Counted from the first letter of the stretch, positions 16,171-55,994 are shown. The stretch is DNA of 64,000 bases from Bacillota bacterium (GCA_013178305.1 JABLXB010000002.1:186001-250000); one strand, 5' to 3'. Notes: generated by a model not told the origin, from the letters alone. Numbers and translations: made by a program.

Positions 16171-16191
16171 CGCCCTGACCTCCCTGGGAGC

Positions 16192-16221
16192 CGCGGGGGC
16201 GGGGTCGCTCCCGCCCCCGCG
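16192..16221 (-). terminator. GC hairpin between BMP lipoprotein and ATPase genes
   Basis: A perfect 12-bp stem (CGCGGGGGCGGG / CCCGCCCCCGCG) with a 6-base loop, not followed by a T-run. It lies 78 bases after the lipoprotein stop and just before the ATPase ribosome site. It probably acts as an attenuator or 3'-end stabiliser that raises binding-protein expression over the ATPase. Confidence 0.6.
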
Positions 16222-16298
16222 CGTTGATCGCCGGCACAAGCCGCGAGCATCCGGTACCACCCGGCAGGCGGCCGCGGTCCACTACTCCAGGCCCGCTA

Positions 16299-17303: not shown

Positions 17304-17488
17304 TCATTACCCCTCCCGTTGTGTTCGATAATGTACCGCGATGCCTCAAACGCCGATCGTCCTCCGTGCCCCGGGCACCCCTCCCTCCACAAACAGGAAC
17401 AGCGAACCCACCCCAAAAGCGTCATCCGCGAACCCAGCCTCGGCCTGTCCGCGACAGCCCGCGACCAGTCCCGCCTGCCGTGCAATTC

Positions 17489-22186: not shown

Positions 22187-22235
22187 ATCGCGGACTCCGG
22201 TGCCGCCGGTGTTATCGATGAGCCGTTCCCCCAGG

Positions 22236-24292: not shown

Positions 24293-25329
24293 GACCCGTT
24301 CCGCCCCCTTGTCAGGGCATACAGGATCATGCCGTTGGAGATGATTATCCTCGCCACCTCGGACATGTCCCCCTGGATGAGAGTCTGTGCTACAGGCAGC
24401 GATGTGGTTAGCAATGCCTGGAAAAGGAGCACGCCCACCACAGCGTGCAGGACGGTTGCGTACTGAGTACTCGCCCCTCCAATCAGGACCGACGCGACGG
24501 CGGGAAACGCCATCATGAGAGGCGCGGTGTAAAGCTGGATGAACCCGAGGCTCTGCGCATAGACCACGATTCCCGCGGCGCCCAGTACCGTGGACAGGAT
24601 CGATCCCATCAAGCGAGCTTTGTCCACGTCAATGCCGCAAGCGGCCGCGAAAGCGGGGTTACTGCCGGCGACACGCATGGCGATACCGCGGGGTGTCCGC
24701 AGGAACACCCACATTAGCAGGCACGCCATGGCGAAGAACCCGAGAAGACCCAGAGGGATCTCGAACCCGCCGGCCTTCAACCTGAAGAGGTTGTCGAGGA
24801 CGTGACCGAAGTTCTCGTCTATCGCGAAGGTTACTCGAAGGCCTTGCCCTCCGACCACGAAGATCATCTTCGGGTTGTGAAACGGCGCCATCACCCAGAA
24901 CATGCACATCCCCGCGACTATCGAGAAGCCCGCATACGTGCCAACCATCATCTCCTGCCCTTTGACGCGGTTGAGCAGGTTGCCATATACATATCCCACA
25001 ACGGTACCCACGACACACCCTATAAAGAGGGCAACAAAGAACCCCGCAAACCCGATTAGGTTCCACTCGAACGCGAGCACCAGCCCGAGAAGCCCGCAGA
25101 TTACTCCGACAGGAAGGCCGAAGTTCATGCCAAGGCCCGCTTGAATGCTGGGAACCATCGCCAGCACAAGTAGCCCGTTCATACCGGCCCTGGTGAGAGA
25201 ATTGGAGATTAACATGGGGATAGGCAGGCCCTTGATACCGGCGAGAATGAATATGAGCAACAGAAACCCGGCTATCACGAGGCGCGCCGCCCCAAGGCTC
25301 CTGAGGGATAGGGCCGCTCTAGCCAGCAT
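24289..25329 (-). CDS. ABC importer permease of the DUF3798 system (first permease)
   Basis: Product of 346 residues, about 9 hydrophobic helices, of the same permease family as its downstream neighbour; both contain a GLGMNFG/GLGLNFG motif and an EAA-like loop with GID/GIN-VD. It overlaps the ATPase gene by 11 bases and the next permease by four. The pair probably forms a heterodimeric channel. Confidence 0.9.
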   Translation of the reverse strand: MLARAALSLRSLGAARLVIAGFLLLIFILAGIKGLPIPMLISNSLTRAGMNGLLVLAMVPSIQAGLGMNFGLPVGVICGLLGLVLAFEWNLIGFAGFFVALFIGCVVGTVVGYVYGNLLNRVKGQEMMVGTYAGFSIVAGMCMFWVMAPFHNPKMIFVVGGQGLRVTFAIDENFGHVLDNLFRLKAGGFEIPLGLLGFFAMACLLMWVFLRTPRGIAMRVAGSNPAFAAACGIDVDKARLMGSILSTVLGAAGIVVYAQSLGFIQLYTAPLMMAFPAVASVLIGGASTQYATVLHAVVGVLLFQALLTTSLPVAQTLIQGDMSEVARIIISNGMILYALTRGRNGS

Positions 25330-26932
25330 GTGGAAGCTCCTTTCCGGCCATCGCCAACCCGAATGCCGTATCGGAGGCCGTAGGCTCTAGAATAGCGCTT
25401 ATGCGACCGTTGTGCATTATCGCGATCCGGTCGCAAACCTTCCTCAGCTCGTTCAGTTCGCTTGACGTCATGACGATGGTTGTTCCCTTTTCCTTGTTGA
25501 GGTGGATCAATTCATCGAGGACGCGTTCCTTTGCCCCAACGTCAATCCCCCGCGTGGGCTCGGAAACCAGGAATACCTGGGGGTCGAGCGTCAACGCTTT
25601 CGCCACGCACACCTTCTGCTGGTTTCCGCCGCTGAGCTGGCGCACCCTCTGCCTGGTATCAGCGCACCTGATGTCGAGCATTGACACCATCCTGGAGGCA
25701 TGGGCCCTCACCGCGGCCCCGTCCCTCATCACGATCGGCAAAGGCCCCATGCGCCGCAGGAACCTGCCCTGGGTCTGCATTGCGGCCACCGCAATGTTGT
25801 CTTCCACCGGCTCATCGAGGAGTAGTCCGACACCCCGGCGGTCCTCGGACAGGAACGCAAGGCCCGCGCTCAAAGCCCCGAGGGGGTGGTTGAGCGGAAT
25901 CCGCACGCCGTCCTTTTCGACCTCACCGCGGGCTGGCTGCAGGCCCATGATGCCGTTTGCCACTCCCAGTTTGCCGTGACCGGCCAGCCCCCCGATTCCG
26001 AAAACCTCGCCCTTGAACACGTCGAAAGAGACCCCTCTCACCATCTCGCCCGGCATATCCACCTCAAGGTCCCGGACCCTGAGCGCCACGTGAACGCCCT
26101 CCATCCTGCCCCCGCTTCCGGTCCGCGACATCTGCCCAAGGCTTCTGCCAACCATGAGCGCCGCGATCTGGTCGACCCTTGCCTCGCTCCCGCGCATTCT
26201 GCCGACCACCTCGCCGTCTCGTAGGACGGTGATGGTGTCGGAAACCTCGATAACCTCGTCGAGCCTGTGGGTGATGAACAGAATGGCGATCCCCGACGAT
26301 GAGATTACTTTCATCGCCCTCAGCAGGTTAGACGCTTCGCCCTCGGTAAGGACAGCGGTGGGTTCGTCGAGCACGAGGAGAGCGACCCTGCTTTTGTCTA
26401 TTTCCCGGGCGATTTCGATGAACTGCATGTGCCCCACGGGCATGCCTGCTACCGGTAACCACTCGTCTATGGAGAGTTCCAGCCTATCTAGAGCGCGCCT
26501 CGAGTCCCTCCTCATGGAGGGGATGTCCAGGGTTTCCATCCGCTTGCCAAGAAACCTGCTCAGGATGTTGGGGTCGGTGGTCTCGCGGTTGAGCTTGATG
26601 TTCTCGGTTACGGTGAATCCCGGGATAAGCATGAACTCCTGGTGGACCATACCGATCCCGGCGTGCATGGCGTCCCTCGGGTTCCTGAAGTCCACTTTGG
26701 ACCCATTGAACCGGACTTCCCCCGAAAAACCGCCGGTCTCATGGATTACGGGCATTCCGAAGACGATGTTCATCAGCGTGGATTTTCCGGCGCCGTTTTC
26801 GCCTACGAGGGCGTGTATCTCCCCCTCCTGAACATCGAGGTCTATGCCCTTGAGGACCCTGTTTCCGTAAAACTCCTTTTGAACACCCCTCAAAGACAGG
26901 ACTGGACCGCTCGGCACTTTGTCATCCCCCAT
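25319..26932 (-). CDS. ABC importer ATPase of the DUF3798 system, two NBDs
   Basis: Product of 537 residues (ATG 26932) or 532 (GTG 26917, which has a better-placed GGGGG site). Domain 1 has GENGAGKSTLMNIVFG and LLVLDEPTAVLTEGE, but its signature region reads MPVGHMQFIEIAREI, a departure from LSxGxxQ. Domain 2 lacks a classical Walker A (GGLAGHGKLG) yet has LSGGNQQKVCVAKAL and FLVSEPTRGIDVGA. Loss of one canonical motif set per domain is common in RbsA-like proteins, with one competent composite site. It follows the binding-protein gene across a GC hairpin and overlaps the permease gene. Confidence 0.92.
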   Translation of the reverse strand: MGDDKVPSGPVLSLRGVQKEFYGNRVLKGIDLDVQEGEIHALVGENGAGKSTLMNIVFGMPVIHETGGFSGEVRFNGSKVDFRNPRDAMHAGIGMVHQEFMLIPGFTVTENIKLNRETTDPNILSRFLGKRMETLDIPSMRRDSRRALDRLELSIDEWLPVAGMPVGHMQFIEIAREIDKSRVALLVLDEPTAVLTEGEASNLLRAMKVISSSGIAILFITHRLDEVIEVSDTITVLRDGEVVGRMRGSEARVDQIAALMVGRSLGQMSRTGSGGRMEGVHVALRVRDLEVDMPGEMVRGVSFDVFKGEVFGIGGLAGHGKLGVANGIMGLQPARGEVEKDGVRIPLNHPLGALSAGLAFLSEDRRGVGLLLDEPVEDNIAVAAMQTQGRFLRRMGPLPIVMRDGAAVRAHASRMVSMLDIRCADTRQRVRQLSGGNQQKVCVAKALTLDPQVFLVSEPTRGIDVGAKERVLDELIHLNKEKGTTIVMTSSELNELRKVCDRIAIMHNGRISAILEPTASDTAFGLAMAGKELPHAG

Positions 26933-26936
26933 TGCC

Positions 26937-26957
26937 CGCGAATATATAGCCGGGCGG
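26937..26957 (+). repeat. 21-base direct repeat, copy 1
   Basis: Differs by one base (T versus C at the seventh position) from the copy at 28340-28360 in the same orientation. The core is ATATAGCCGGGCGG. The two copies flank the DUF3798 binding-protein gene; this copy also supplies the left arm of the hairpin at 26949-26972. Confidence 0.6.
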
Positions 26958-26972
26958 GGTGCCCCGCCCGGC
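26949..26972 (-). terminator. GC hairpin after the DUF3798 binding-protein gene
   Basis: An 11-bp perfect stem (GCCGGGCGGGG / CCCCGCCCGGC) 16 bases after the binding-protein stop and before the ATPase start, without a T-run. It probably attenuates or stabilises transcripts, favouring binding-protein expression. Confidence 0.6.
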
Positions 26973-26988
26973 CAGCCGAGCTACAACC

Positions 26989-28119
26989 TTATTTCTTCCC
27001 GAAGATGTACGAATTCTCAATGCCCAGGTACATGTTGCGGCCTTCTATGTACCTCGACACCTGAATGCTCACCCCCGACTCTTTCTCGAGCGCCTTCTTC
27101 ACCGCGTCGAGGTCACTCAACTTGAGCTTGCCCTCTATCGCTCCCATAGACAGCTCTGCTGCCGCCTTGACGGCCACGTAGTTGTACGGGGCAGGCCACG
27201 TGGCGAAACGCCCGGCCCCGCCCTTCTCGACGATCTTCTCTTCAGTGGCCTTCAGGATCGCGGGGAAGTTGCCCGCCATGCCCTTCACGTCAATACCAAG
27301 CGCCCCGGGGTAACCGTGGGTCGGACTGGGGCAGCATTGCTCGGCGAAGATCCCGCCGCTCGCCAGGGTCGCCTTGATGAGCGGCTCCTGCATGCCGCAG
27401 TTCGTGCTGAACAGGCAGATGTCCTTGCCATGCTGCTGGACCTGCATCGGGACGTTCTCGAGAATGAACTTCTGCGCGCCGGGAATGCCGTCCGGACCCA
27501 TCGGATCGGGCGCGGTCACGAACACGAACTCTATGCCTTCCGCCGCGCACGCTTCCTTCATCAAGTCACGACGCTTGGCGAGCAGCTCCATCGCCATGTG
27601 CCTCGGGAACGAATAGTGGATGAACTTCTTCGCTCCGAGCTGCTTCGCCATCTTGATGATGGTCTTGCCCCTCGCAAGGTCGTCCGCCTGGAAGACCAGG
27701 TCCGCCTTTTCCGATACGATCTTCGGGTCCTCGTGCGCCTCGACGACCGTAATGACGATATCCTTGCGCTTCTGCCTTATGCGGTCTATGGCGGCGGCCG
27801 TTCCCGGCACACCCTGCGCGACGATGATCGCTTTCACCTTGGGATCGTCAGCAAGTCCCGCTATCTGGCCGATGGTCGTTTCCTGCTCCTGCATGAAGTT
27901 ATCGGGATAGGTGACATGGACAACGCGGTCCCCGTACTTGGCCTTGACCGCCTCCGCAGCGCGGTATTCGTCCTCGTTCTGCGTTACCGTGGTGGTCGCC
28001 AGACCGATCTTGTAATCCTGGGACACCTGGCCGCCGCCGGCGCCGCCACCGCAACCCGCAACACCCACGAGTAGCCCTGCCAAGAGGAACACACCGATGA
28101 ACCGTTTCACATTGGTCAT
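26989..28119 (-). CDS. DUF3798-family substrate-binding lipoprotein
   Basis: Product of 376 residues from the ATG at 28119, which has GGAGG nine bases upstream. A lipoprotein signal (FLLAGLLVGVAGCGGG) is followed by a periplasmic-binding-protein-like fold: YKIGLATTTVTQNEDEYRAA, AIIVAQGVPGTAAAI, IHYSFPRHMAMELLA. I recognise the DUF3798 family, whose ligand is not known to me. It is the first gene of the importer operon and sits between it and the hydantoinase/carbamoyltransferase genes, which suggests a ureide, hydantoin or nucleobase ligand. A CCPSPTHGYPGALGID segment carries a vicinal cysteine pair. Confidence 0.88.
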   Translation of the reverse strand: MTNVKRFIGVFLLAGLLVGVAGCGGGAGGGQVSQDYKIGLATTTVTQNEDEYRAAEAVKAKYGDRVVHVTYPDNFMQEQETTIGQIAGLADDPKVKAIIVAQGVPGTAAAIDRIRQKRKDIVITVVEAHEDPKIVSEKADLVFQADDLARGKTIIKMAKQLGAKKFIHYSFPRHMAMELLAKRRDLMKEACAAEGIEFVFVTAPDPMGPDGIPGAQKFILENVPMQVQQHGKDICLFSTNCGMQEPLIKATLASGGIFAEQCCPSPTHGYPGALGIDVKGMAGNFPAILKATEEKIVEKGGAGRFATWPAPYNYVAVKAAAELSMGAIEGKLKLSDLDAVKKALEKESGVSIQVSRYIEGRNMYLGIENSYIFGKK

Positions 28120-28392
28120 GGTTACGAAACCTCCTCCCGAGTTTGAGTCACGGAGCGTCAGATCGCGTCTTCTGAGTGGACCCCCCTCCAGATTCAACCC
28201 TATACAATGATGCATCTACGGCTTGTCGGTATTCTACAGCGCTGCTTTCCATTCCTTCCTAAAATCGGAATTAGCGGAGATTTGAATTCACCGGAAGGCG
28301 TAGTCGAAAGGGGCAGGTCAGATGGGGCTCCTTTTGAACCGCGAACATATAGCCGGGCGGTATATCGACAATGCTAGCGCGGGACAGAAAAA
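28120..28392. other. Intergenic control region before the DUF3798 importer operon
   Basis: The 273 bases are AT-richer than the surroundings and contain the second copy of the 21-base repeat. No small ORF with a ribosome site is convincing. It should contain the importer promoter, but I see only weak candidates (a TATAGG near 28199 on the minus strand without a good -35). Confidence 0.45.
28340..28360 (+). repeat. 21-base direct repeat, copy 2
   Basis: Twenty of 21 bases identical to 26937-26957. Here the GC half is followed by TATATCG rather than by a complementary arm, so it forms no hairpin. Confidence 0.6.
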
Positions 28393-29844
28393 TTACGGAA
28401 ATCGGAGCGCAGCGGTGTCAGGCAACGTTCGGGGTATGAACTCTCCGCGGGCCAGGTCGCCGGACCGCCCGGGCGGGTTTTCCCGGCCGGGGTTGCTACG
28501 GTAGACCGGCAGGCCCCTGAGAACCGTCATCACGACTTGCCCGCGCACCGGCCTACCGTCGTATATGCTGTAGTCCCCGCCCCCCGGGAGGTTCTTTGAG
28601 GACACCCGACACCTCGGCGACGGGTCGAACAACACCAGGTCCGCATCGAAGCCGGCCGCGACGGCGCCCTTCCTCGGCCACAACCCCATGATCCTCGATG
28701 CGTTACAGGACGTGACCGCCACCAGCCTCTCGAGGCTTATGCGCCCCGCCTGGACCCCTTCGGTATACATGAGTTGCAGGATGAGTCCGGTCGACCCCAC
28801 GCCGTTGGGTATCTCATTGAACGGCCGCCCCTCGCATGCAGAGAGGGGGAACGGACAATGATCGGACCCCACGCAGGATATCTCGCCCAGTGCCAGCCCG
28901 CGCCACAGGCGCTCGCAGTCCGCCTTCGTCCTCAGCGGAGGCGACATCACGTAGCGGAATCCATCCTGTGCCGCGAGGTATGAGTCGTCCAGGAGCAGGT
29001 AGTGCGGGCACGTCTCGGCCCACACTGTCTCGCCGGCGCGCCTCGCCGCCGCAACCGCCTCCAGGGACTCTCCGGTCGAGAGATGGACGAAGTAAAGCCT
29101 CCCGCCCGCGGCGCGGTTCAGTACCAGCAACCTCTGCACCGCCTCGACCTCGGCGAACGAAGGCCTGCTCATGCCATGGTAATATGGCGCTGTCTTGCCC
29201 TGTTCAAGGAACTCAGCGGTATAATGCCGGATTATCTCGTCGTTTTCCGCGTGGGCGCACACGAGCGCCCCGGACTCCGCCGCAGCCAGCATGACAAGCC
29301 ACAGCGATCTCGTATCGAGGGCGAGCCCTTCGTAGGTGGTGAACACCTTGAACGAGGAAACCCCCGACTCCACGAGGTGCCTGATCTCGTTCGCGGTCTC
29401 CCGGCCGACCTGATTGACCACGACGTGAAGCGAGTAATCCACTCCCACCGCCGGTCCCGCCGTCGCGCCCGCCACCCCGTCCGGCGCCCCGCCGGCGCTG
29501 CGAATTCTCGCCTCGAACGCTGCAGTAAGGCCCTGCCCCTGCTCCGGCTGGGCGAAGTCGATTATCGTCGTGACGCCGCCGGACGCGGCGAAAGCCGACC
29601 CCGACGCCCAGTTGTCCGACGTAGGGACGCCGCCTGTGCCCACGTCGTTCATGTGGGTGTGCGGGTCTACGAGTCCCGGTAACACCAGGAGCCCCCTCGC
29701 GTCGACCTCGGTGGCGGCCTCGACCTGCTGCCTGAGGTCGCTGCCTACGGCATGGACGCGGCCGTCCTTTATGGCGACGTCCTGGGGAGCGCTGCCCCAC
29801 GCGTTGACGACGACGCCTCCATATACGAGCGTGTCTACTCTCAT
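28393..29844 (-). CDS. hyuA: Cyclic-amide hydrolase: D-hydantoinase/dihydropyrimidinase family
   Basis: Product of 483 residues from the ATG at 29844. It opens hydantoin, dihydropyrimidine or allantoin-like rings to N-carbamoyl (ureido) acids with a binuclear zinc centre. The motifs are LPGLVDPHTHMN (HxH), SSFKVFTTYEG with the lysine that becomes carboxylated, CAHAEND, YFVHLSTGESLEA and GSDHCPFP. It is separated by 23 bases from the SsnA-like amidohydrolase gene upstream, in an operon with the carbamoyltransferase. In E. coli the equivalent hyuA (ygeZ) lies with ygeW, ygeX, ygeY and ssnA. The ring substrate here is not determined. Confidence 0.88.
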   Translation of the reverse strand: MRVDTLVYGGVVVNAWGSAPQDVAIKDGRVHAVGSDLRQQVEAATEVDARGLLVLPGLVDPHTHMNDVGTGGVPTSDNWASGSAFAASGGVTTIIDFAQPEQGQGLTAAFEARIRSAGGAPDGVAGATAGPAVGVDYSLHVVVNQVGRETANEIRHLVESGVSSFKVFTTYEGLALDTRSLWLVMLAAAESGALVCAHAENDEIIRHYTAEFLEQGKTAPYYHGMSRPSFAEVEAVQRLLVLNRAAGGRLYFVHLSTGESLEAVAAARRAGETVWAETCPHYLLLDDSYLAAQDGFRYVMSPPLRTKADCERLWRGLALGEISCVGSDHCPFPLSACEGRPFNEIPNGVGSTGLILQLMYTEGVQAGRISLERLVAVTSCNASRIMGLWPRKGAVAAGFDADLVLFDPSPRCRVSSKNLPGGGDYSIYDGRPVRGQVVMTVLRGLPVYRSNPGRENPPGRSGDLARGEFIPRTLPDTAALRFP

Positions 29845-29867
29845 ATCCCCCGACCACCTATCCGGAG

Positions 29868-31205
29868 CTACACCCCCCATAACCTGGACGCCGCGCGCCT
29901 CGTACCCTGGAGCACTGTCTCGCGGTCCAGCGTGAGCACGGCCCCGCTGGACTTCACGAGCTGGCCACCCACCATCACGTCGCGCACGTCCTTCGGGTTC
30001 CTGTGCAGGACCACCTGTTCGAATACGTTTCCAGCCGTCACCGGGGTTGAAAGGTCCATCTGGATGGTTATCAGGTCGGCCGGCGCGCCCGGGGCGAGTG
30101 TTCCGAGGCCCGCCAATTCGGCGCGCCGCGAAGCCCCCGCTACCACTACCCCTCCCAGCCTGGTTGCCATGTCGTACACCGTCTTCGCGGGCATGACCCG
30201 CGGGTCTTCCCTGTACGCCTTGTGAATCAAGAACGCGCCGCGCATTACCTCGAAGAAGTTGTTGACATAGCCGTCCGTGCCCAACCCGGCGCTAACTCCA
30301 GCCGCCAGCATGTCGGGAACGGGCGAAACGCCTCCGCCGACCTCGCAGTTGGACAGGGGCATGTGTGATACCTTGACTCCGCCGTTGGCGAGCAGGGCTA
30401 TCTCCTCGGGGCTCACCTTCACGCACTGCGAGGCGACGAGGTCCGGACCCAGGAAGCCCATCTCGTCGTACAGCGCCGCAGGGCGCTTGCCGTACTTCCT
30501 CTCGCACCACTCCGGTTCGTATGAGCTCTCCGACATGTGGATGTGCATCCCGCAGCCGATTTCCCTGGATATGTCCCTGGCGCGAGCCAGAAACGCCCGC
30601 GAGCAGGTGAACGTCGTGTGGATGCACATCATGCCGCGAACCCCGGAACCGCCGGACCTGGATGAAGCGAACCGGGCATTTTCCTGCAGCCCCATTCCCG
30701 CCCTATCCGGCCCCGACCTCTCGGTCGCCTCGAACGAAAGGAATCCGCGCAGGCCGGTGTTCTCGACCTCCTCCGCCTCGACGTCGAGGCAGCCCGGCAG
30801 CGCGTTGGGCGCCTCCAGCACGTCCGCGAAGCAGGTAACGCCGGAGTCGATCATCTCGTAGCAGGCGGCGCGCACCGCCGCGCGCAGGGTTTCGTGGTCG
30901 AGGCGGTCCTCGACGTACGGCCACCAGAACTCCTCGAGGAACGAGTAGAACCCCGAGGGGGCGGCGTGCACGGGGATGCCTCGCGACAGTATGCCGTACA
31001 TGTGCATGTGGGTGTTGACGAACCCGGGCGCCACCAGCGCCCCGGGCGCAGCGATCTCCCGGGCGGCCGGCCGTTTCGCCTCGAGTTCGCCTACAGGCCC
31101 CACCGACGCGACCTTACCGTCCTCGACGAGCACGCCCCAGCCATTCCTGATCCCATCTTGCGCCGATGCCAGCAGGTAGTCGCCGTACACGAGCACGGGT
31201 TCCAC
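29868..31205 (-). CDS. Amidohydrolase, SsnA/5-methylthioadenosine-deaminase-like
   Basis: Product of 445 residues from the GTG at 31205, five bases after AGGGGG; the frame extends further upstream but there it overlaps the carbamoyltransferase gene and looks non-coding. Motifs: APGFVNTHMHMYG (HxH), CGMHIHMSES (third His), SQCVKVSPEEI in place of the usual xHC (Q-C rather than H-C), VSHMPLSN and GLGTDGYVNN (Asp). Replacement of the fourth histidine is notable and may change metal use. It is a second superfamily member in the island, not close to the one at 19.6-21.0 kb, and lies between hydantoinase and carbamoyltransferase genes, so it may deaminate an upstream heterocycle. Confidence 0.85.
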   Translation of the reverse strand: MEPVLVYGDYLLASAQDGIRNGWGVLVEDGKVASVGPVGELEAKRPAAREIAAPGALVAPGFVNTHMHMYGILSRGIPVHAAPSGFYSFLEEFWWPYVEDRLDHETLRAAVRAACYEMIDSGVTCFADVLEAPNALPGCLDVEAEEVENTGLRGFLSFEATERSGPDRAGMGLQENARFASSRSGGSGVRGMMCIHTTFTCSRAFLARARDISREIGCGMHIHMSESSYEPEWCERKYGKRPAALYDEMGFLGPDLVASQCVKVSPEEIALLANGGVKVSHMPLSNCEVGGGVSPVPDMLAAGVSAGLGTDGYVNNFFEVMRGAFLIHKAYREDPRVMPAKTVYDMATRLGGVVVAGASRRAELAGLGTLAPGAPADLITIQMDLSTPVTAGNVFEQVVLHRNPKDVRDVMVGGQLVKSSGAVLTLDRETVLQGTRRAASRLWGV

Positions 31206-31264
31206 ACGGACACCCCCTGTCGCCAGGCCGACGCTTGCTCTACCGCCTTCCGGTCGCGCGGGAG

Positions 31265-32242
31265 CTACATCGTGCAGGCCATTATCGACTTGTTGATGTG
31301 CAGCCTGTTCTCGGCCTGATCGTAGATGACCGAGTGCGGGCCGTCCATGACCTCCTCGGTGACCTCGATGCCGCGGTCGGCCGGCATGCAGTGCATGTAT
31401 ATCGACCGGGGCTTCGTGACGCTCATCTTCTTCGAGTCGACGACCCACCCGGGGTACTTGTCTATCAGGGCGATGCCCTCTTTCTCGTCCTTAGTGTAGG
31501 CAATCGGCCCCCAGCTCTTGGGGTACACGATGTCGGCGTCGCGGAACGCCTCGGTCATGTCGTTCACGACCTCGAACTTGACGCCGGCCTCCTTCGCGTT
31601 GTTCTCGGCGGCGGCCATCACCTCGGGCAGGAGATGGAACTCCCTGGGTATGGCCAGCGTGACGTCCATCCCGAAGCGGGGCATGAGGGTGACCAGCGAG
31701 TGCGGCATCGACAACGGACGCACGTACTTGGGCGCGTACGTCCAGGAGCAGACGAACTTGCGGCCCCTCAGGTCTCCGCGGAACTTCTCCATGATCGTCA
31801 TCAGGTCGGCGAGCTCCTGAGTGGGATGCCACAGGTCACACTGCATGTTGATGACGGGGATCTTCGCGTATTGCGCGATGGCGTTCATGTACCTGTTGCC
31901 GACGCCGAAGGTGGTGTTGCGGATCGCGATACCCTCGCCGTACCTCCCCAGCACCTCGACGGTGTCCTTCGGCCCCTCGCCGTGGTCGATCTGCGTGGCC
32001 TTGGGCGTCAGGTAGATCGCGTGCCCGCCGAGCTGGTGGATGCCGGCCTCAAACGAGTTGCGTGTCCGCGTGGACTCCTCGAAGAACAAGAGGAATATGC
32101 TCTTGCCGTCGAGGATCTTGTGGGGTATGCCGAGCGAGCGCATCCGCTTCAGTTCCAGCGCGGTGTCGATTATCGTCTCGATTTCTTCCTTCGTCCAGTC
32201 CTGGCACGTGATCAGGTGCTTGCCCTTGAGATCGCTCTTCAA
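31265..32242 (-). CDS. ygeW: Carbamoyltransferase, YgeW-like (OTC superfamily)
   Basis: Product of 325 residues from a TTG at 32242 behind GGGGGAGGAG (eight bases). The carbamoyl-phosphate motif is ESTRTRNSF, and HCMPADRG is the C-terminal active-site motif. NMQCDLWHPTQELAD, SWTYAPKYVRPLSMP and VYPKSWGPI follow the knotted YgeW-type transferases more closely than ornithine carbamoyltransferase. In catabolism such enzymes run backwards, phosphorolysing a ureido compound to carbamoyl phosphate and an amine, which feeds carbamate kinase; no kinase gene is in the window. Directly followed by the amidohydrolase and hydantoinase genes. The acceptor substrate is unproven; 2,3-diureidopropionate or a ureidoglycine-type acid are candidates by analogy. 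Confidence 0.85.
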   Translation of the reverse strand: MKSDLKGKHLITCQDWTKEEIETIIDTALELKRMRSLGIPHKILDGKSIFLLFFEESTRTRNSFEAGIHQLGGHAIYLTPKATQIDHGEGPKDTVEVLGRYGEGIAIRNTTFGVGNRYMNAIAQYAKIPVINMQCDLWHPTQELADLMTIMEKFRGDLRGRKFVCSWTYAPKYVRPLSMPHSLVTLMPRFGMDVTLAIPREFHLLPEVMAAAENNAKEAGVKFEVVNDMTEAFRDADIVYPKSWGPIAYTKDEKEGIALIDKYPGWVVDSKKMSVTKPRSIYMHCMPADRGIEVTEEVMDGPHSVIYDQAENRLHINKSIMACTM

Positions 32243-32403
32243 AATCTTTCTCCTCCCCCGCTCAAATGATCGGTCCCCGACGACCCCCGCCACGTAGAGC
32301 GTGACCCGGTTGTGCAGCCCGAGTGAGCGGCCTTCTCAAGGCCCGCCGTGGCGCCGTCCACTGCCTTTAGCCACGCAGTGTTCACAATCATCAAACTAGC
32401 CAA

Positions 32404-32425
32404 CTGGAAGTTCTCCAGGCGTCAA
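32404..32425 (-). promoter_or_regulatory. Possible -35 plus operator upstream of the carbamoyltransferase operon
   Basis: TTGACG (minus strand, 32425-32420) is followed by the inverted repeat CTGGA-N5-TCCAG (32404-32418) in the would-be spacer. The matching -10 is poor. It lies in the 196-base gap between the XRE-cupin regulator gene and the carbamoyltransferase gene, so it may be that regulator's binding site. Confidence 0.35.
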
Positions 32426-32438
32426 CATTTTCCTGCGT

Positions 32439-33086
32439 TCAGAACGTCGCCGGCGTGCACACCACCAGGACCCTTGCCATCTCATCCGTGGGGTTGCTCC
32501 ACCCATGGGGGGATTCGGCGGGGTAGTTGATTATGTCCCCCGCCTTCAGCCGGTACTTCTCATCGGCTTCGTATACGAAGTCCACTTCGCCCTCGATAAC
32601 GTAACAACACTCGTCACCCTGGTGCGACACCGGCTTCCCCGACGACGCGCCGGGCGGCAGCGTCATCCCCGTCGCCTCGAGCTTCAGGTTGTCGCTGACG
32701 AACAGCATCCTCACGTGCGCCTTGTGCTCGAGCATCGTCTGGACGACGTCGTTACAGCGGATGTGCTTTATGGGCCCCCGCTTTTGGTCCATGAAGAAGA
32801 ACACGGTCGAAACGCCGAGGATATCGGATATCTGTTTGAGAACGTCTATCCTCACGTTCGCCTTGCCCGTTTCCATCTGGCTGAGGTAGGACGCCGACAG
32901 GTTGAGCCGTTCGCCCATGTCGCGAAGGGTTATGCCCTTCCGCTTGCGCAGGAACCTGATGCGGCGGCCGATGCTCTCGAGGAACTCTTCCCTGCCGTCT
33001 GTCTCCACGGTGGCCTGTATGCCCCGCTGGGCGCCGGTTTGCACCACTCCGTCCTCCGCCAGCTCACGCGTCACCGTCGTGCTCAT
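32439..33086 (-). CDS. XRE-family regulator with C-terminal cupin domain
   Basis: Product of 215 residues. Residues about 38-95 are a helix-turn-helix (ITLRDMGERLNLSASYLSQMETG); the C-terminal 90 residues are a cupin (GDECCYVIEGEVDFVYEADEKYRLKAGD). This is the PuuR/HipB-like design that senses a small catabolite. The ATG at 33086 overlaps the flavoprotein stop as ATGA; an in-frame ATG at 33098 is possible. It is co-transcribed with the flavoprotein and UbiD genes, and probably controls the surrounding ureide-type genes. Confidence 0.9.
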   Translation of the reverse strand: MSTTVTRELAEDGVVQTGAQRGIQATVETDGREEFLESIGRRIRFLRKRKGITLRDMGERLNLSASYLSQMETGKANVRIDVLKQISDILGVSTVFFFMDQKRGPIKHIRCNDVVQTMLEHKAHVRMLFVSDNLKLEATGMTLPPGASSGKPVSHQGDECCYVIEGEVDFVYEADEKYRLKAGDIINYPAESPHGWSNPTDEMARVLVVCTPATF

Positions 33087-33703
33087 CTCCCGCACCATTC
33101 CAGCATGAGCGCCTGCGCCGCCACCCTCCTGCCGAGCAGGCGGAGCATCTCCATTCCCTCGGCGTCGTCGCGGACGCCTACCTCCCCCTGGTCGCGCGAC
33201 CAGACCGTGGCGCCGCCGTACAGAGGCCGGCCGCCCACGGGCATTACGCCTCGCGCCAGGTAGAAGTTGTGAATTGCCTGTATCGTGGTCTCCTGCCCGC
33301 CATGCCTCGTGCCGCCCACGGCTACGGCCCCGCCAACCTTGCGCAGGTACTGCTCGGTGCTAATCACGGGGTTGAGCGCCCTGGTCCGGCTGAACAGACT
33401 GTAAAGCTGCGGGGTGACGCCCATCACGTACACAGGCGAACCGATTATGTAGGCATCCGCCCAGAGCCACGCCTCGGCGAATTCGCCAAACGCATCGTCA
33501 AACGCGGGGCACCGGCCCTGTTTTTCCTTGAGACACCTGTCGCAGTGGATGCAGCCGTTTACCTTCTTTCCGGCGACGCCGAAGAACCGCGTTTCCACGG
33601 TCGCGTCACGGGCTGCCTCCTGGGCTGCTTCCAGCGCCACCCGCACCGCGTGTTCCGTCCCCGCGCGACGGGGGCTGCCGCTAATGCCGAGTATCCGCGC
33701 CAA
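33083..33703 (-). CDS. NAD(P)H-dependent FMN reductase/flavodoxin-like protein
   Basis: Product of 206 residues. ILGISGSPRRAGTEHAV is the flavodoxin-fold phosphate loop, and GSPVYVMGVTPQL lines the flavin. A CIHCDRCLKEKQGRC stretch has four cysteines and may hold an Fe-S cluster, as in iron-sulfur flavoproteins. It begins three bases after the UbiD stop and overlaps the XRE gene, so it works with one of these. Supplying reduced FMN for the prenyl-FMN cofactor of UbiD is a reasonable inference. Confidence 0.85.
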   Translation of the reverse strand: MARILGISGSPRRAGTEHAVRVALEAAQEAARDATVETRFFGVAGKKVNGCIHCDRCLKEKQGRCPAFDDAFGEFAEAWLWADAYIIGSPVYVMGVTPQLYSLFSRTRALNPVISTEQYLRKVGGAVAVGGTRHGGQETTIQAIHNFYLARGVMPVGGRPLYGGATVWSRDQGEVGVRDDAEGMEMLRLLGRRVAAQALMLEWCGR

Positions 33704-33706
33704 GTC

Positions 33707-35056
33707 TTAGCCTCCCGTCAGGTACTTGCTCATATCCACCAGCGGGTACACGACCTTCGAGATCTTCCCGCGCTTTTCTTCGTCGAGCGTGGCGTCGATC
33801 CCCATCTTGATCTGCACGCCGCGGTGGTCCGACGTGGGATCGAGCTCGTGCCCCTGCGCGTTGGGTATGAAAAATATGTCCTTGTCGGGGCGCACGCGGG
33901 TCGATAGCGACCACATCACGTCCTGCGGGTCGAATACGTCGACATCGTCGTCCACGACTATCACGTTTTTTATGTTAACGTGCGCGGTCATGGCGGCAAG
34001 CGCCACGTTCTTCGGCTCCCCGGGGTTTGACTTCTTAAGTGAGATGATCGCCAGGAAGCCCGCGCCGTACGGCGCGATGTGGACGGCTCTGACTCCCCCG
34101 GATACGTGGGTGACGAAACGCTTCAGCAGTGGCTCCCTCGGCCACACATTACCGAGGTTGACGTGCTCGAACCCCGCCCCGGCTATGGTCTGGTAGATGG
34201 GCGAATCCCTGTGGCATATGGCCGTCACCCGGAAGACCGGGCTGTCCCAGGGCGCGCCGTAGTGACCCGAGAACTCGGCGAGCGGTCCCTCCATTTCCCT
34301 CACACCCGGCAACAACTCGCCCTCGATGACTATCTCGGAATCCGCCGGTACGAGCAGGTCGTTCGTAACACATCTCGCCACGGGGTAAGGGCGCCCGAGG
34401 AGCGATCCCGCGATCTCGATCTCGTCCCCTTCGTACCTGATCCCCGCAGCGATGTACACCACGGGATCCACTCCGATCGCGACCGCCACCGGCAGGGGAT
34501 CCCCCGCTTCCTCGGCTCGGTCGTGAGCCACCCGGAGGTGGCGCCATTCGTTTATCATCATGCCGGTGGTGTCCGGCCCTTTCACGTGTTGCCTCTGAAA
34601 TGAAAGGTTCTGTACGCCGGTTGCGGGGTTTCGTCCCACGGTGACGCCGCCCGTGATGAACGGCGCCGCGTCCTTCGGCGCGTGCCGGGGAATGGGCAGA
34701 ACACCGAGGTCAGGCCCCTCTTTGATGATGTTACGGTAAAACGGCGCGTCACCGACGACCGCGGGTTTGATGGGGTTGTCCATCGCGTGGCCGATGCGGT
34801 CGACGACCTCCTCGCGGCTGCATTCAAGCGCGAGCGCGACCCTGGCCTGCGAGCCCAGCACACCACCCACTACGGGAATGGTGTGCCCCTTCACCCGCTT
34901 GAACAGCACCGCCTTCTTCTCGAGCCTCTCGGCGGTCACCAGGACACTGCCGAGTTCCACATCCAAACTGACCTCGGTCCCGATTTCGATGATCTCGCGG
35001 GCGTCCCTGAGTATGTCAATGAAGGGTCTCAGCCCGGTTTGCCTCTCGAGCGCCAC
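33707..35056 (-). CDS. UbiD-family decarboxylase (prenylated-FMN enzyme)
   Basis: Product of 449 residues from a GTG at 35056. UbiD enzymes reversibly (de)carboxylate aromatic or alpha,beta-unsaturated acids using prenyl-FMN. Characteristic stretches are the EMEGPLAEFSGHYG motif, FITGGVTVGRNPATGVQN and IGVDPVVYIAAG. UbiX, needed to make the cofactor, is not in the window. Immediate neighbours are a flavoprotein (3-base gap) and a PLP enzyme (27 bases upstream). A UbiD in a purine/ureide-like cluster is unexpected, and its substrate is unknown; a heteroaromatic carboxylate such as an imidazole or pyrimidine acid is a speculative fit. Confidence 0.88.
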   Translation of the reverse strand: MALERQTGLRPFIDILRDAREIIEIGTEVSLDVELGSVLVTAERLEKKAVLFKRVKGHTIPVVGGVLGSQARVALALECSREEVVDRIGHAMDNPIKPAVVGDAPFYRNIIKEGPDLGVLPIPRHAPKDAAPFITGGVTVGRNPATGVQNLSFQRQHVKGPDTTGMMINEWRHLRVAHDRAEEAGDPLPVAVAIGVDPVVYIAAGIRYEGDEIEIAGSLLGRPYPVARCVTNDLLVPADSEIVIEGELLPGVREMEGPLAEFSGHYGAPWDSPVFRVTAICHRDSPIYQTIAGAGFEHVNLGNVWPREPLLKRFVTHVSGGVRAVHIAPYGAGFLAIISLKKSNPGEPKNVALAAMTAHVNIKNVIVVDDDVDVFDPQDVMWSLSTRVRPDKDIFFIPNAQGHELDPTSDHRGVQIKMGIDATLDEEKRGKISKVVYPLVDMSKYLTGG

Positions 35057-35083
35057 TTGAGGTATCCCTCCCCCAACCCCTGC

Positions 35084-36469
35084 TCAGCCGCGCGCATCCC
35101 TAAGCAGCCGGTCTACCTCGGCCACCTTCGCGCGCTCCGCCGCCCACCAATCCTGGCTCCTCTGCGCGTTGAGTTCCGCCACGGTCTTCCCCTGCTGCTC
35201 AACCCAGGTATAGTACTTGAGGTTGAACCACCTGTCGCGGTTGTTCGCCGTCCCCTCCTGGATCCAGTCGAGCTTGACGCCGCGGAATATGCCCCAGAAG
35301 CGGCTGGCCGACTTCTCCGCATCCAGCCTGCCGAACCTCTCGTCGAGCGCGGCCATGACCGAGTAGTACCTGTCGATGGTGTCGGTCGCGATGGTCACGA
35401 CGTTCTGGCGCGCGTCCAACCCCCAGAACTTCGCGGCCTTTATCGCCCCGAGGACGTTGCACACGCCGGATATCCCGAATATCGTCGACATCTCCCGCGC
35501 CGCCGCCTCGTCGATCCCCGACTTCGCCGCGAGCCACTCCATGCCGGCGGGGTCGGTGAGGAGCTGCAGCCCGAGTTTGCACTCCATGTCGTCGATGCAC
35601 ATCATGGCGTCCGTGTTCATGACGTTGTGGATCCAGGTCACGTGCTTGTCGCCGATTCCCTGGATGTCGTGGTCGCCGTAACCGTTGTTGTAGAGCGTCG
35701 GGCACTGGATGGGCTCGAGGCCCACGATGCGGTTCTCGGGGAATACCTCCTTCACCCTGTCCCCCGCTGCGATGGTGCCCGCGGAGCCCATCGCGGAAAC
35801 GAACGCCGCGCACCTTCCGTTGCCGATGCCCTTCCGCCCGAGCTCGGACACCAGGTCGACTACTGTGTTGCCGGTCACGTAGTAGTGGAACCTGTAGTTG
35901 CCCATCACCTCGAACTGGTTGAGTACCCGCATGTTGGGCTGCTTCTTCAGTTCCCAGCACTTGTCGTAGATCTCCTTGACGCTGGACTCGCAGCCCGGGG
36001 TCTTGATGTACCTCGCCCCGTACGACTCGATCTTCTGGAACCTCTCCCGGCTCATCATCTCGGGGAGTATGACGAGAGAGTCGTACCCCATACGTGGGCC
36101 GACCCAGGCCCCACCTATTCCGTAGTTCCCGGTCGATGGAAACACGATCGTGTGCTCGCCCGGGCGGATCTCGCCCGCGAGCTGTTTCTCCACCGTGACC
36201 GAGTACGTGGCGCCGACCTTGTGGGAGGCCGTCGGGAAGTCGCGCCCGTAGAGGACGACGACGTTCGCCTCCACGCCTGTGAGTTCCCTGGGCAGGACCA
36301 TGTAGCAGGGCGAGCCGTCGGGCTGCTTCCAGGTGATGTTGTAGAGGTTAATCTCGTTGAGCGGGTCGGCCTTTTTCGCAAGAAGCGCCTTCTCGCGGAC
36401 CTTCGGATCTATCTTCTCCGGGTGCAGCATCTCCTCGAAGGTAGGTCCCCACACGAGCCGCTTTGACAT
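35084..36469 (-). CDS. Fold-type II PLP-dependent lyase of unassigned reaction
   Basis: Product of 461 residues. The Schiff-base lysine is probably K84 in TASHKVGATY, the phosphate-binding loop appears as SAMGSAGTIAAGD, and PSTGNYGIGGAWVG (about 111-124) is the substrate loop, as in the cysteine-synthase/threonine-synthase superfamily. The 60-residue C-terminal extension rich in W/R/E is unusual. It is not close to diaminopropionate ammonia-lyase (YgeX) by eye, although its position matches that gene in the E. coli cluster. It may release ammonia from a beta-substituted amino acid formed downstream of the carbamoyltransferase; that is inference. Confidence 0.75.
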   Translation of the reverse strand: MSKRLVWGPTFEEMLHPEKIDPKVREKALLAKKADPLNEINLYNITWKQPDGSPCYMVLPRELTGVEANVVVLYGRDFPTASHKVGATYSVTVEKQLAGEIRPGEHTIVFPSTGNYGIGGAWVGPRMGYDSLVILPEMMSRERFQKIESYGARYIKTPGCESSVKEIYDKCWELKKQPNMRVLNQFEVMGNYRFHYYVTGNTVVDLVSELGRKGIGNGRCAAFVSAMGSAGTIAAGDRVKEVFPENRIVGLEPIQCPTLYNNGYGDHDIQGIGDKHVTWIHNVMNTDAMMCIDDMECKLGLQLLTDPAGMEWLAAKSGIDEAAAREMSTIFGISGVCNVLGAIKAAKFWGLDARQNVVTIATDTIDRYYSVMAALDERFGRLDAEKSASRFWGIFRGVKLDWIQEGTANNRDRWFNLKYYTWVEQQGKTVAELNAQRSQDWWAAERAKVAEVDRLLRDARG

Positions 36470-36522
36470 CTCGAATCCTCCTCGATGCTATACTCCGTCT
36501 ATTTCTACGAGCGCCGGCCATG

Positions 36523-37779
36523 TCACGCGCGGGGCAGCATGCCCCGGGAGCGCAGCGCTTTCACGAATTCATCCAGGTCCGGTTCGACAGCCACCGGCTC
36601 ACCACACGCCTTCCTCGCGCTCGCGATGTCCTTGAGCCCGTTACCAGTAACAACCACCGCAACCGTGTCGGTTTCACGCAGCCCGCCCTCCATGGCCATC
36701 TTCCGGAAACCTGCGTAACCCGTGACGCCCGCCGGCTCGCCGAACACACCCGCCTGCCTCGCGAGCTCGCGCATGGCGTCCAGGATCTTGTCATCAGTCA
36801 CCGTTATCATGTCGCCCCGGCTCAACCTCGCGGCGCGAAGCGCCTTGGCCCAATTCCGCGGCGCGCCGACCGAGATGCTGTCGGCGAGGGTGTTGGACGG
36901 GCCGAATTGCACCCTCTCCCGCCCCTCCTTGAACGCGTTGTATACCGGGCGGCACCCGTCCGCCTGCACGCCGCACAGCCTGGGTATGCGGTCTATGAGA
37001 CCGATCTGCTCCAGATCCCGGAACCCCTTGTACAGCCCGCTCAGGCAACACCCGTCTCCAACCGAGATGAACACCCAGTCGGGGACCTCCCAGTCGAGCT
37101 GCTCCGAGATCTCCATCGCACAGGTTTTCTTCCCCTCCACCAGGTAGGGGTTGATGGCGCAGTTGCGGTTGTACCACCCGAATTCCCCGATGGCGGCCGT
37201 CGAGAGGTTGAATGCGTCCTCGTAAGTGCCGTTGACGAGCATTACGCGGGCGCCGTAGATGAGCAGTTGGGCCACTTTCGCCTCGGGGGCCGTCTTCGGT
37301 ACGAAGATGAAGCTCTCCAGGCCCGCGACTGCGGAAAAACCCGCGAGTGAACTCGCGGCGTTGCCGGTCGACGCGCACGCCACCGCGCGCCTGCCGTGAT
37401 CGAGCGCCTTTCCTACGCCAACGGCACTCGCCCTATCCTTTAACGAGGCCGTGGGATTGCGGCCGTCGTCCTTGATGTACAGCCGCTTCACGCCGTACTC
37501 GGCGGCGAGCCTGTCGCTCCGGTAGATCGGGGTCCAGCCCACAGCCAGCGGCTGGACGTGCGCCGTCTCGCGCACCGGCAACACGGGCCAGTACCGCCAC
37601 AGGCTCCTGTCGGGGTTCGCGGCCATGCCGGCGCGGGTCATCTGCGCGCCTGCGTCGTCGAAGTCGTACAGGACGTCCAGGGTCCCGTCGATGCCGCAAG
37701 ACGTGCAGGTGTAGTCGACCTCACCCTCGCGGTACGAGCGCCCGCACAGCACGCATTTCAATTCCGCGACTTGTCCCAT
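36523..37779 (-). CDS. Threonine synthase-like PLP enzyme with N-terminal zinc ribbon
   Basis: Product of 418 residues from the ATG at 37779 with GGAGG nine bases upstream. Residues C9/C12 and C25/C28 form a zinc ribbon, then GRNPTASLKDRAS (K114 as PLP lysine) and ACASTGNAASSLAG follow, the typical threonine-synthase pattern. No homoserine kinase or other threonine gene is near; instead a second PLP enzyme and a YgeY-like peptidase flank it. A catabolic ammonia-lyase role is therefore as likely as threonine synthesis. Confidence 0.8.
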   Translation of the reverse strand: MGQVAELKCVLCGRSYREGEVDYTCTSCGIDGTLDVLYDFDDAGAQMTRAGMAANPDRSLWRYWPVLPVRETAHVQPLAVGWTPIYRSDRLAAEYGVKRLYIKDDGRNPTASLKDRASAVGVGKALDHGRRAVACASTGNAASSLAGFSAVAGLESFIFVPKTAPEAKVAQLLIYGARVMLVNGTYEDAFNLSTAAIGEFGWYNRNCAINPYLVEGKKTCAMEISEQLDWEVPDWVFISVGDGCCLSGLYKGFRDLEQIGLIDRIPRLCGVQADGCRPVYNAFKEGRERVQFGPSNTLADSISVGAPRNWAKALRAARLSRGDMITVTDDKILDAMRELARQAGVFGEPAGVTGYAGFRKMAMEGGLRETDTVAVVVTGNGLKDIASARKACGEPVAVEPDLDEFVKALRSRGMLPRA

Positions 37780-37837
37780 GCGCAAACCTCCACATAGACC
37801 TCGAACCCGGGGTCTGGGCACCCGCCGGCGCCGGGCG

Positions 37838-39070
37838 TCAGGACCGTCCGCCGCACACGATCGCCCCGGCTATTGCGTAATAGCCGGCGCACGCACCCAC
37901 AAGCTGCTCGATTTCCACGTACTCGTCGGCGACGTGGGCCAAGTCCTCCCGGGACGGCCCGAACCCGACCGTGGGGATGCCGGCGACGCCGGCGTAGTAG
38001 CTTCCGTTGGTGCAGAAGCTGTAGTGCGAAACGGAGGGATGAAGACCGGCGCTCCTCAAGGCGCCGAGGCACAACGCCACGAACCAGTGGTCCTCGTCGA
38101 ACAACCAGGCGGGGGCAAATCGCTCCGCCCTGATGCTCTCACCCGTATAGCACTTGTCTTCGCCAACTGCGACACCTACGGACGCCGAGACCGACGGATC
38201 GGCCTCGTGGACGCGCCCGATAATACGGCGTATCCCGCCGAGCACGTCTTCCCTGGTTTCACCGGTGAGGAGCCGCCTGTCGAACGTGACCCGGCATCGT
38301 TCCGGGATTACGCTGGCCCCGGGGTAAGGCGAGGAGATGATGTCCGTGGGTTCGAGTATGGCGTCACCCAGCACGGGGTGTGTCCGGGGGATGTACCCCG
38401 CCTCGATCGCACCGAGCACGGCGACCATCTTACTCAGGGCGTTCAGCCCCGCCTGCGGATTGGATGAGTGTGCCGCCTTCCCCACTGTCTCGAGGACCAG
38501 TTCGGCGCGCCCCCGCTGGCCGCGCTTGAGGTCCAGCTGCGAGGCCTCGCCGATCACGACGCAGTCCGGCTCGAATGCGCGGGCGATCTCGCTGCAGGCG
38601 ACACCTTCGAAGCATTCTTCGTGGACCGACCCGGCGACGATGATGTCGCCTTGTCGAACGGGGTGGTCGCGTTTCACGTAGGCGGCGGCGAGCACCATGG
38701 CCGCCAGCCCGCCCTTCATATCGCTTGCCCCGCGCCCGTATATCTTTCCTCCTTCGACCTCCGCGCCATGCGGGGCCTTCGTCCAGCGGCTGACGTCCCC
38801 CGGTCCGACGGTATCCATGTGACCCTCTAAGAGCACCGTCGTACCGCGCGTCCCGCTATCCGCCCCGCGGGTTGTCCGGCCGGGCAAGGTCGCCGCGATC
38901 CTGCCGGCGACGTTGCCCAGCCTGTCCACCACGACCTCGTCGTAGCCGAGCGCCGTCATCGTTTCTCTAACGAGGCCCGCCAAGCGGTCCTCGTGACCCG
39001 ACGGGCTGGGCAACTGTATCATGTCGCGGCAGAGTCGTACGAGCTCGTCTATGCGGGTGGCGCTGAGCAT
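37838..39070 (-). CDS. ygeY: M20-family metallohydrolase, YgeY-like
   Basis: Product of 410 residues from the ATG at 39070, five bases after AAGGGGG. Zinc-site motifs are LLEGHMDTVGP (His84, Asp86), GRGASDMKGGLAA and SVHEECFEG with the catalytic glutamate pair; the dimerisation domain lies between about 180 and 300. M20 members hydrolyse N-acyl or N-carbamoyl amino acids and dipeptides. YgeY of E. coli is in the purine/ureide cluster, and the neighbourhood here (carbamoyltransferase, hydantoinase, PLP enzymes) agrees. An N-carbamoyl amino acid hydrolase role is plausible. Confidence 0.85.
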   Translation of the reverse strand: MLSATRIDELVRLCRDMIQLPSPSGHEDRLAGLVRETMTALGYDEVVVDRLGNVAGRIAATLPGRTTRGADSGTRGTTVLLEGHMDTVGPGDVSRWTKAPHGAEVEGGKIYGRGASDMKGGLAAMVLAAAYVKRDHPVRQGDIIVAGSVHEECFEGVACSEIARAFEPDCVVIGEASQLDLKRGQRGRAELVLETVGKAAHSSNPQAGLNALSKMVAVLGAIEAGYIPRTHPVLGDAILEPTDIISSPYPGASVIPERCRVTFDRRLLTGETREDVLGGIRRIIGRVHEADPSVSASVGVAVGEDKCYTGESIRAERFAPAWLFDEDHWFVALCLGALRSAGLHPSVSHYSFCTNGSYYAGVAGIPTVGFGPSREDLAHVADEYVEIEQLVGACAGYYAIAGAIVCGGRS

Positions 39071-44350: not shown

Positions 44351-44519
44351 AGCACCTTCCACACCACTTATCCAGACCAGCGCCTCCCAGGCGCAAAGAG
44401 GTCTCCGGCCGTTCACCAGGCAATGGCCTCAGGCGGGACAGCCGGAGGTGGAACGCCTGATCCGCACGAGAACAGGCGGTGGATTCCTTCGTGAAGGCTG
44501 CGGTGAAGGGCCAGGCGGC

Positions 44520-47739: not shown

Positions 47740-47760
47740 CCGCTGGGAGGGTGGGATTAC

Positions 47761-54269: not shown

Positions 54270-54295
54270 CCTCTTCGTCCCCCCTGCTCAGGCGG

Positions 54296-55750: not shown

Positions 55751-55781
55751 GAAGGCAATCCCCCTTTCGGTCCGGGTGAGT

Positions 55782-55987: not shown

Positions 55988-55994
55988 CACCGGA

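Follow-up and report, generated by a model that had tools for sequence, protein, structure and literature searches.

The island under study lies in a window of 64,000 nt, the whole stretch of DNA that was analysed, from a Bacillota bacterium (GCA_013178305.1, JABLXB010000002.1:186001-250000; this genome is labelled G000). The HyuA-, SsnA- and YgeY-like genes, the carbamoyltransferase (CTase), the UbiD and flavoprotein genes and the two PLP-enzyme genes named in an initial annotation of the window were all recovered at the positions it gave by ORF and profile searches, on the minus strand and with coding-type GC3 (Table 1). A single co-directional minus-strand run extends from an ADH gene (40334) to a PnrA-type transporter (at about 14.6 kb). 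Its core, in transcription order, is M20b, PLP2, PLP1, UbiD, FMN_red, XRE-cupin, CTase, SsnA-like and HyuA-like, with overlaps or intergenic gaps of at most about 60 nt except for about 200 nt ahead of the CTase. The core is followed by DUF3798 and ABC importer genes, a GntR regulator, an FAD oxidoreductase, AmHy2 and a PnrA-like ABC transporter. The DUF3798/ABC importer genes are co-directional with the core, and none were seen in the islands of relatives; orthologues of the PnrA/BMP-type transporter adjoin UbiD islands in loci L184 and L187.

Table 1. Features of the window (positions counted from its first nucleotide).
Feature	Position	Strand	Evidence
M20b, YgeY-like M20 amidohydrolase, paralogue of true YgeY	37838..39070	-	NF009555, TIGR03526 scores
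PLP2, threonine-synthase-like fold-type II PLP enzyme, N-terminal CxxC...CxxC ribbon	36523..37779	-	profile scores
PLP1, cysteine-synthase-like fold-type II PLP enzyme, 461 aa, N- and C-terminal extensions	35084..36469	-	profiles and AF2 fold
UbiD-family (prFMN type) decarboxylase, HmfF-like	33707..35056	-	PF01977/20695/20696
FMN_red flavoprotein, cysteine-rich motif, iron-sulfur-flavoprotein-like	33083..33703	-	PF03358, 88 bits
XRE-cupin regulator	32439..33098	-	HTH_3 and Cupin_2
CTase, short carbamoyltransferase, OTC-like rather than YgeW	31265..32245	-	profile scores, tree clade
SsnA-like amidohydrolase, distinct subfamily	29868..31247	-	261 bits versus cut-off 444; tree clade
HyuA/dihydropyrimidinase-like cyclic amidohydrolase	28393..29844	-	TIGR02033, 420 bits versus cut-off 393 (profile search)
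DUF3798 protein, ABC ATPase and two permeases, likely importer	23174..28215	-	PF12683, 404 bits; PF00005
GntR regulator, DAO-type FAD oxidoreductase, AmHy2 amidohydrolase (8-oxoguanine deaminase/ATZ type)	19557..22952	-	
PnrA/BMP-type ABC transporter genes, possible purine/nucleoside importer	14629..18436	-	PF02608, 229 bits
Ferredoxin (truncated at window edge) and AOR-family tungsten-type oxidoreductase	1..2237	+	PF01314/PF02730

Elsewhere in the window, an acyl-CoA dehydratase activase and related genes stand beside an oxaloacetate-decarboxylase beta-type membrane protein (43205-47910) as an unrelated neighbour. Positions 52974-57863 hold an HpaB/4-hydroxybutyryl-CoA-dehydratase-like gene, a butyrate-type CoA-transferase and a PrdR-like sigma-54 activator (490 bits versus a cut-off of 795); a sigma-54-activator-like family likewise recurs at many PLP1 clusters. 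Tail, capsid and terminase-like phage genes, recognized by eye directly to the right of the window (L066; G000:C2:250001-269900), probably belong to a prophage.

The hydantoinase belongs to the HyuA type by its profile score. For the SsnA-like protein SsnA was the best family (TIGR03314/NF005540), at a score below the cut-off. The CTase (326 aa) matched the OTC model best (274 bits versus a cut-off of 281) and fell outside YgeW (TIGR03316), the models of which gave 210-220 bits against cut-offs of 453-500; the gene annotated initially as YgeW-like is thus a carbamoyltransferase, but a short OTC-type paralogue. M20b scored 428 bits with NF009555 (cut-off 321), yet 246 bits with TIGR03526 (cut-off 321.5). 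It adjoins PLP2-PLP1 in L035, L036, L049, L052 and L145, and YgeX in G374 and G525, which are genomes without PLP1/PLP2. Genome profile searches placed a true ArgF, separate from the window CTase, at C8 (448 bits), and a true ThrC (310 bits) also lies elsewhere in the genome; CTase and PLP2 are therefore not the sole candidates for biosynthesis, and housekeeping roles for them were rejected. Close homologues with an unrelated biosynthetic role were looked for and none was found.

The PLP enzymes, unassigned in the initial annotation, were placed by profile searches among PF00291/CysK-like (PLP1) and ThrC-like (PLP2) proteins. PLP1 matched PF00291 with 77 bits, and its best profile in the search of solved-structure chains was CysK-like (138 bits). 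The lysine motif FPTxSHKVG, the STGN loop and the glycine-rich phosphate loop are retained in the alignment. In the fold search, some 320 residues of an AF2 model of PLP1 (pLDDT 94.6) aligned with CysK, beta-cyanoalanine synthase and cystathionine beta-synthase (TM by target about 0.8), whereas its extensions, about 140 residues, found no match. PLP2 is a ThrC paralogue (ThrC-like NF006050, 316 bits versus a cut-off of 303); its best chain profile was ThrC-like (322 bits) and the YgeX chain 4d9g gave 54 bits. It carries a conserved four-cysteine ribbon, a KDR lysine motif and an STGNAASS loop. Both enzymes preserve the Schiff-base lysine motif and the substrate loop, and neither is close in sequence to YgeX or to the other. 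Solved-structure and fold searches with PLP1 and PLP2 returned CysK/CBS or ThrC neighbours only. A relationship of PLP1 to OrtB (no match) or SbnA (46 bits) was rejected. PLP1 and PLP2 would most naturally catalyse beta-elimination or beta-replacement, the leaving group being a beta-amino or beta-ureido substituent of an amino acid substrate.

The UbiD protein has the N, rift and C domains, and the genome contains three UbiX genes; it is assigned to the UbiD family. The closest solved chain is 6h6v (307 bits, 390 residues aligned), an HmfF-type UbiD, which is a heteroaromatic (furan) carboxylate decarboxylase.

Further pathway genes are found outside the window, and the pathway set in this genome is spread over about 50 kb. 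To the left (L065), genes for a true YgeY (TIGR03526, 377 bits, about 6 kb from the window), a UacX-like DHO_dh and ferredoxin protein (L065:8175-9281), an AOR-family enzyme and a MoaD-like protein lie 5-10 kb away, the first, second and third of these at G000:C2:176-181k. The UacX-like protein would supply a dearomatizing reductase of the YgfK or UacX kind. It is AOR, not XdhD, that adjoins its gene; the sole PF01315 (XDH) gene of the genome lies at C2:367243, 117 kb to the right of the window, and is 28% identical to the XdhD of L121. Carbamate kinase (ArcC) is present as a single genome copy at C1:158457 (428 bits), with none in the window, and YgeX (TIGR03528) had no match in the window or genome-wide at E<=1e-60. 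The reported lack of YgeX and carbamate kinase hence holds for the window, and for YgeX also for the genome at that threshold, but the genome does have ArcC. A second YgeY (507 bits, C1:398577) is accompanied by a second CTase on contig 1. This CTase-YgeY pair (G000:C1:397529-401093; L219:12530-16094) lies behind a 435-residue protein without a Pfam match, possibly a regulator, whose relatives recur by PLP1/YgeY/CTase in L051, L052, L058 and L073.

The distribution of the PLP pair was examined in a survey not selected on PLP1, comprising 398 genomes of the phylum, 82 of them with strict YgeY. PLP1 and PLP2 were both present in 67 of these 82 and YgeX in just 20: the pair without YgeX in 55, all three in 12, YgeX alone in seven, PLP2 alone in three, PLP1 alone in two, PLP1 with YgeX in one and none in two. 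Related genomes are not independent; counting by genus, which reduces but does not remove the effect of kinship, gave the pair only in 34 of 50, all three in eight, YgeX only in six, PLP2 only in one and PLP1 with YgeX in one. PLP1 and PLP2 co-occur in 72 of the 398 genomes (16 expected), and YgeY and PLP2 in 70 (15.5 expected). The gene set of the window is more than a chance association, and the grouping that the initial annotation read as a pathway is conserved rather than scattered, with PLP neighbourhoods of the window type recurring in several phyla.

Besides its occurrence in the class, PLP1 turned up in at least 585 candidate stretches from GTDB genomes, the best 80 of which were used. 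Within 9 kb of 126 PLP1 loci were PLP2 (61), YgeY (50), CTase (47), SsnA/AmHy2 (46), XdhD (34), HyuA (29), ArcC (21), UacX (17 and 8, in two groups), Ade (15), YgfK (8) and YgeX (7). The two PLP genes are often apart, only 31 of 91 PLP1 genes lying within 2.5 kb of PLP2. A strict exclusion of PLP1 and YgeX at the genome level was rejected (16 genomes share both versus 13 expected) and applies to neighbours only: among 150 YgeY-family genes listed, 21 were within 3 kb of PLP1/PLP2, 16 of YgeX and none of both, the figures within 10 kb being 40, 20 and two. Since M20b/YgeY neighbours either YgeX or PLP1/PLP2 alternately, the pair is read as acting at the YgeX stage, and the view that it occupies the place of YgeX in most yge-type clusters surveyed is supported. 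The cluster L121 of a complete Mycoplasmatota genome runs HyuA-SsnA-UacX-XdhD-FeS-FAD-Ade-PLP2-PLP1-YgeY-CTase (YgeY 682 bits, Ade 599 bits), and L228 (G482) has a similar full reductive set, with PLP1 and PLP2 at 76 and 67% to the window proteins; neither cluster contains YgeX. PLP1, PLP2 and YgeX lie inside one stretch in L222-L225 (four of the 12 three-enzyme genomes) and, in another set, in L125. The pair is not solely a YgeX substitute everywhere, because 12 genomes hold all three enzymes and PLP1 adjoins YgeX in C. algoriphilum (L076).

Behind the purine cluster of L121 (Mycoplasmatota zrk2; L121:15537-20858), LplA and glycine cleavage genes (GcvT, H, PA, PB) were recognized by eye, and in G037 SHMT follows PLP1; a link of the PLP pair to glycine or serine is possible. 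Genes resembling those of F420 biosynthesis, again by eye, occur in PLP1 clusters of Chloroflexota (L082, L086, L088, L091-L093, L101), which agrees with an F420 reductase variant of the pathway reported previously (PMC12507026).

UbiD orthologues (48-62%) are present in seven other genomes of the class, and UbiD occurs with CTase, YgeY, AmHy2, AOR or FMN_red at eight loci of the class. CTase, YgeY and AmHy2 together neighbour it in L052, L184 and L186-L188, where AmHy2 adjoins UbiD directly, and the FMN_red flavoprotein is close to it in L185-L189; further neighbours of the orthologues are AOR, SsnA, HyuA, UacX, FMN_red, GntR and PnrA-type transporters. Across the class, about eight genomes retain UbiD as a conserved accessory. 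It was rejected as a standard component of PLP1 clusters, being limited to the class and absent from most such clusters. The assignment of AmHy2 as a specific 4-aminoimidazole deaminase was weakened, as its relatives occur without UbiD. In G037 (C198) the whole set is contiguous on one strand over 27 kb: MoaD-Fd-AOR3-Pyr_redox-FMN_red-Fe_ADH-AOR2-AmHy2-UbiD-YgeY-CTase-FMN_red-GntR, continued by AOR1-SsnA-UacX-HyuA-M20b-PLP2-PLP1-SHMT-ArcC, with the oxidoreductase families assigned from the homologous G038 locus. Window positions 303-2237 encode an AOR sharing 76% identity with its counterpart in the G037 and G038 UbiD islands.

G038 carries, in addition to its UbiD/AOR-type island, an ordinary XdhD-type cluster elsewhere with its own SsnA and CTase. 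In a quick tree, calculated without bootstrap, the window SsnA falls in an eight-row clade of UbiD/AOR-type loci of the class (support 100). The window CTase falls in a 12-row clade with UbiD/AOR islands (100/100); G000 and G038 each have a second CTase, and these two group in a different clade (100/98). The separation by CTase is imperfect, Moorella and G165, both with XDH, lying inside the 12-row clade. The two trees largely separate UbiD/AOR-type from XdhD-type clusters. Two additional UbiD genes of G000, both with UbiX nearby, lie in L067 (G000:C3:322000-341900) and L068 (G000:C3:355000-374900); one is directly behind an AOR gene, which suggests a repeated AOR-UbiD pairing.

The reductive pathway of XdhD, YgfK/UacX, SsnA, HyuA, YgeW/UacY, YgeY and YgeX to pyruvate is established (PMC12507026, PMC12990295). 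We give about an even chance to the model in which the island encodes a variant anaerobic reductive purine-type pathway, with PLP2/PLP1 doing the work of YgeX and UbiD acting on a precursor. Families, neighbourhoods, co-occurrence and the paralogy of two cluster types are observed; the reactions and substrates that follow are all predicted from them. At the entry to the pathway, UbiD would decarboxylate a heteroaromatic precursor whose carboxyl group ADH and AOR may generate; ADH/AOR and then UbiD could in this manner strip a one-carbon side chain off the ring. The AOR-family enzyme would take the position of XdhD in this sub-type. The SsnA- and HyuA-type hydrolases would open the dearomatized heterocycle to a diureido acid, from which the CTase would remove a ureido group as carbamoyl phosphate, to be used for ATP by ArcC, and the YgeY-type M20 enzyme would likewise strip a ureido group. 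The resulting 2,3-diaminopropionate (DAP), or a close relative, would be consumed by the PLP2/PLP1 pair, as by YgeX in E. coli. Points that weigh against the model are the genomes holding all three enzymes, the frequent separation of PLP1 from PLP2, the sequence distance of both from YgeX, the absence of UbiD from the published pathway and the spread of the set in the window genome.

A more specific version, offered tentatively and at less than even likelihood, takes the UbiD/AOR island to encode an additional, paralogous reductive route, next to the ordinary XdhD-type cluster that G038, and probably G000, also carries. Its substrate would be a heterocycle bearing a substituent, such as a purine, pyrimidine or pterin with a hydroxymethyl, formyl or carboxy group. 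ADH/AOR would oxidize the side chain and UbiD remove it, the ring would then be reduced and hydrolysed, and the C3 unit would leave via the two-enzyme PLP system, an ending that would also be the commonest among the uricolytic clusters of the phylum.

Other explanations were weighed against these. The UbiD part might instead belong to a xanthinase (Barker-Rabinowitz) branch, with UbiD decarboxylating 4-amino-5-imidazolecarboxylate, AmHy2 deaminating 4-aminoimidazole and glycine used via SHMT. In favour of this branch, Tong et al. (2023) reportedly found the xanthinase-pathway decarboxylase to be prFMN-dependent, AmHy2 adjoins UbiD in five loci and SHMT comes after PLP1 in G037. That pathway also has decarboxylative steps and gives glycine (PMC12507026). 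It leaves UacX, HyuA, PLP1 and PLP2 without a role, however; imidazolonase and formiminotransferase were not recognized by eye in the islands, and clusters that lack UbiD (L228, L244, L254) contain relatives of AmHy2 as well. We regard this branch as unlikely. It seems similarly improbable that the island is an ordinary uricolytic cluster carrying UbiD and the flavoprotein as unrelated passengers, with PLP enzymes that are simply equivalent to YgeX. The core enzymes do fit known pathway families and most PLP1 clusters are without UbiD, but the recurrence of UbiD with its partners at eight class loci, the presence of both cluster types in G038, the largely separate trees and the distance of PLP1 and PLP2 from YgeX and from each other argue against it.

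A different role for the PLP enzymes, such as beta-replacement on DAP or albizziin to give serine or cysteine, or racemization before YgeX, in place of simple lysis to pyruvate, is possible though doubtful. The CysK-like fold of PLP1 is consistent with it, as are the coexistence with YgeX in some clusters, the SHMT adjoining PLP1 in G037 and the glycine-cleavage operon after the L121 cluster; O-ureidoserine synthase (3x43, among the fold matches) is a CysK-fold enzyme acting on a ureido-alanine analogue. Against this, another candidate DAP lyase is lacking in most genomes that carry the pair.

The proposal of a variant pathway with a decarboxylation step and a different lyase, made in the initial annotation, is sustained in so far as the PLP pair stands at the YgeX place and UbiD and the flavoprotein are conserved in related islands. 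Its comparison with the E. coli yge cluster was apt, in that a variant yge-type route of reductive purine breakdown is supported, but too narrow, because the SsnA and CTase clades are separate from most XdhD-type uricolytic clusters and members lie outside 28393-39070. Our results suggest two new elements of the known pathway: a widespread candidate terminal pair, PLP1+PLP2, and a class-level UbiD/AOR sub-type. It was not until 2025 that the anaerobic uric acid pathway was solved (PMC12507026). That study describes XdhD, reductase and YgeW/UacY variants and treats every neighbouring PF00291 gene as YgeX; in a later survey ygeX serves as the pathway marker (PMC12542679). Most YgeY genomes of the phylum carry PLP1+PLP2 rather than YgeX, and rules based on ygeX or on any PF00291 gene would therefore miss or misname them; the commonest terminal step in the phylum would then be an uncharacterized one. 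The open-access literature searched contained no account of the PLP1/PLP2 pair or of a UbiD in a purine-type setting. A sister pathway acting on another heterocycle is suggested by the UbiD/AOR islands, and the contiguous model locus makes both the PLP-pair and the sister-pathway claims directly testable.

Among known systems, the E. coli and C. difficile pathway has characterized reactions (PMC12507026). This reductive uric acid route (E. coli ygf/yge; C. difficile XdhD/UacX/UacY) shares HyuA-, UacX- and YgeY-type enzymes and a carbamoyltransferase with the island, as well as an SsnA-like protein that scores below the family cut-off, and carbamate kinase with the window genome outside the window. 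The island differs in having PLP1+PLP2 and a short CTase with no YgeX or YgeW, AOR beside SsnA/UacX where XdhD would be, SsnA and CTase in separate clades, and the addition of AmHy2, the FMN_red flavoprotein and UbiD, for which the reductive pathway as published offers no step. YgeX, a diaminopropionate ammonia-lyase, is like PLP1 and PLP2 a fold-type II PLP enzyme in an equivalent position adjoining YgeY/M20b, whereas the window enzymes are CysK-like and ThrC-like. HmfF (6h6v) is the nearest solved relative of the window UbiD, in a different gene context. The xanthinase pathway of Gottschalkia/Clostridium has anaerobic purine degradation, hydrolases and a decarboxylation in common with the island, which differs from it in its reductive and ureido-cleaving genes.
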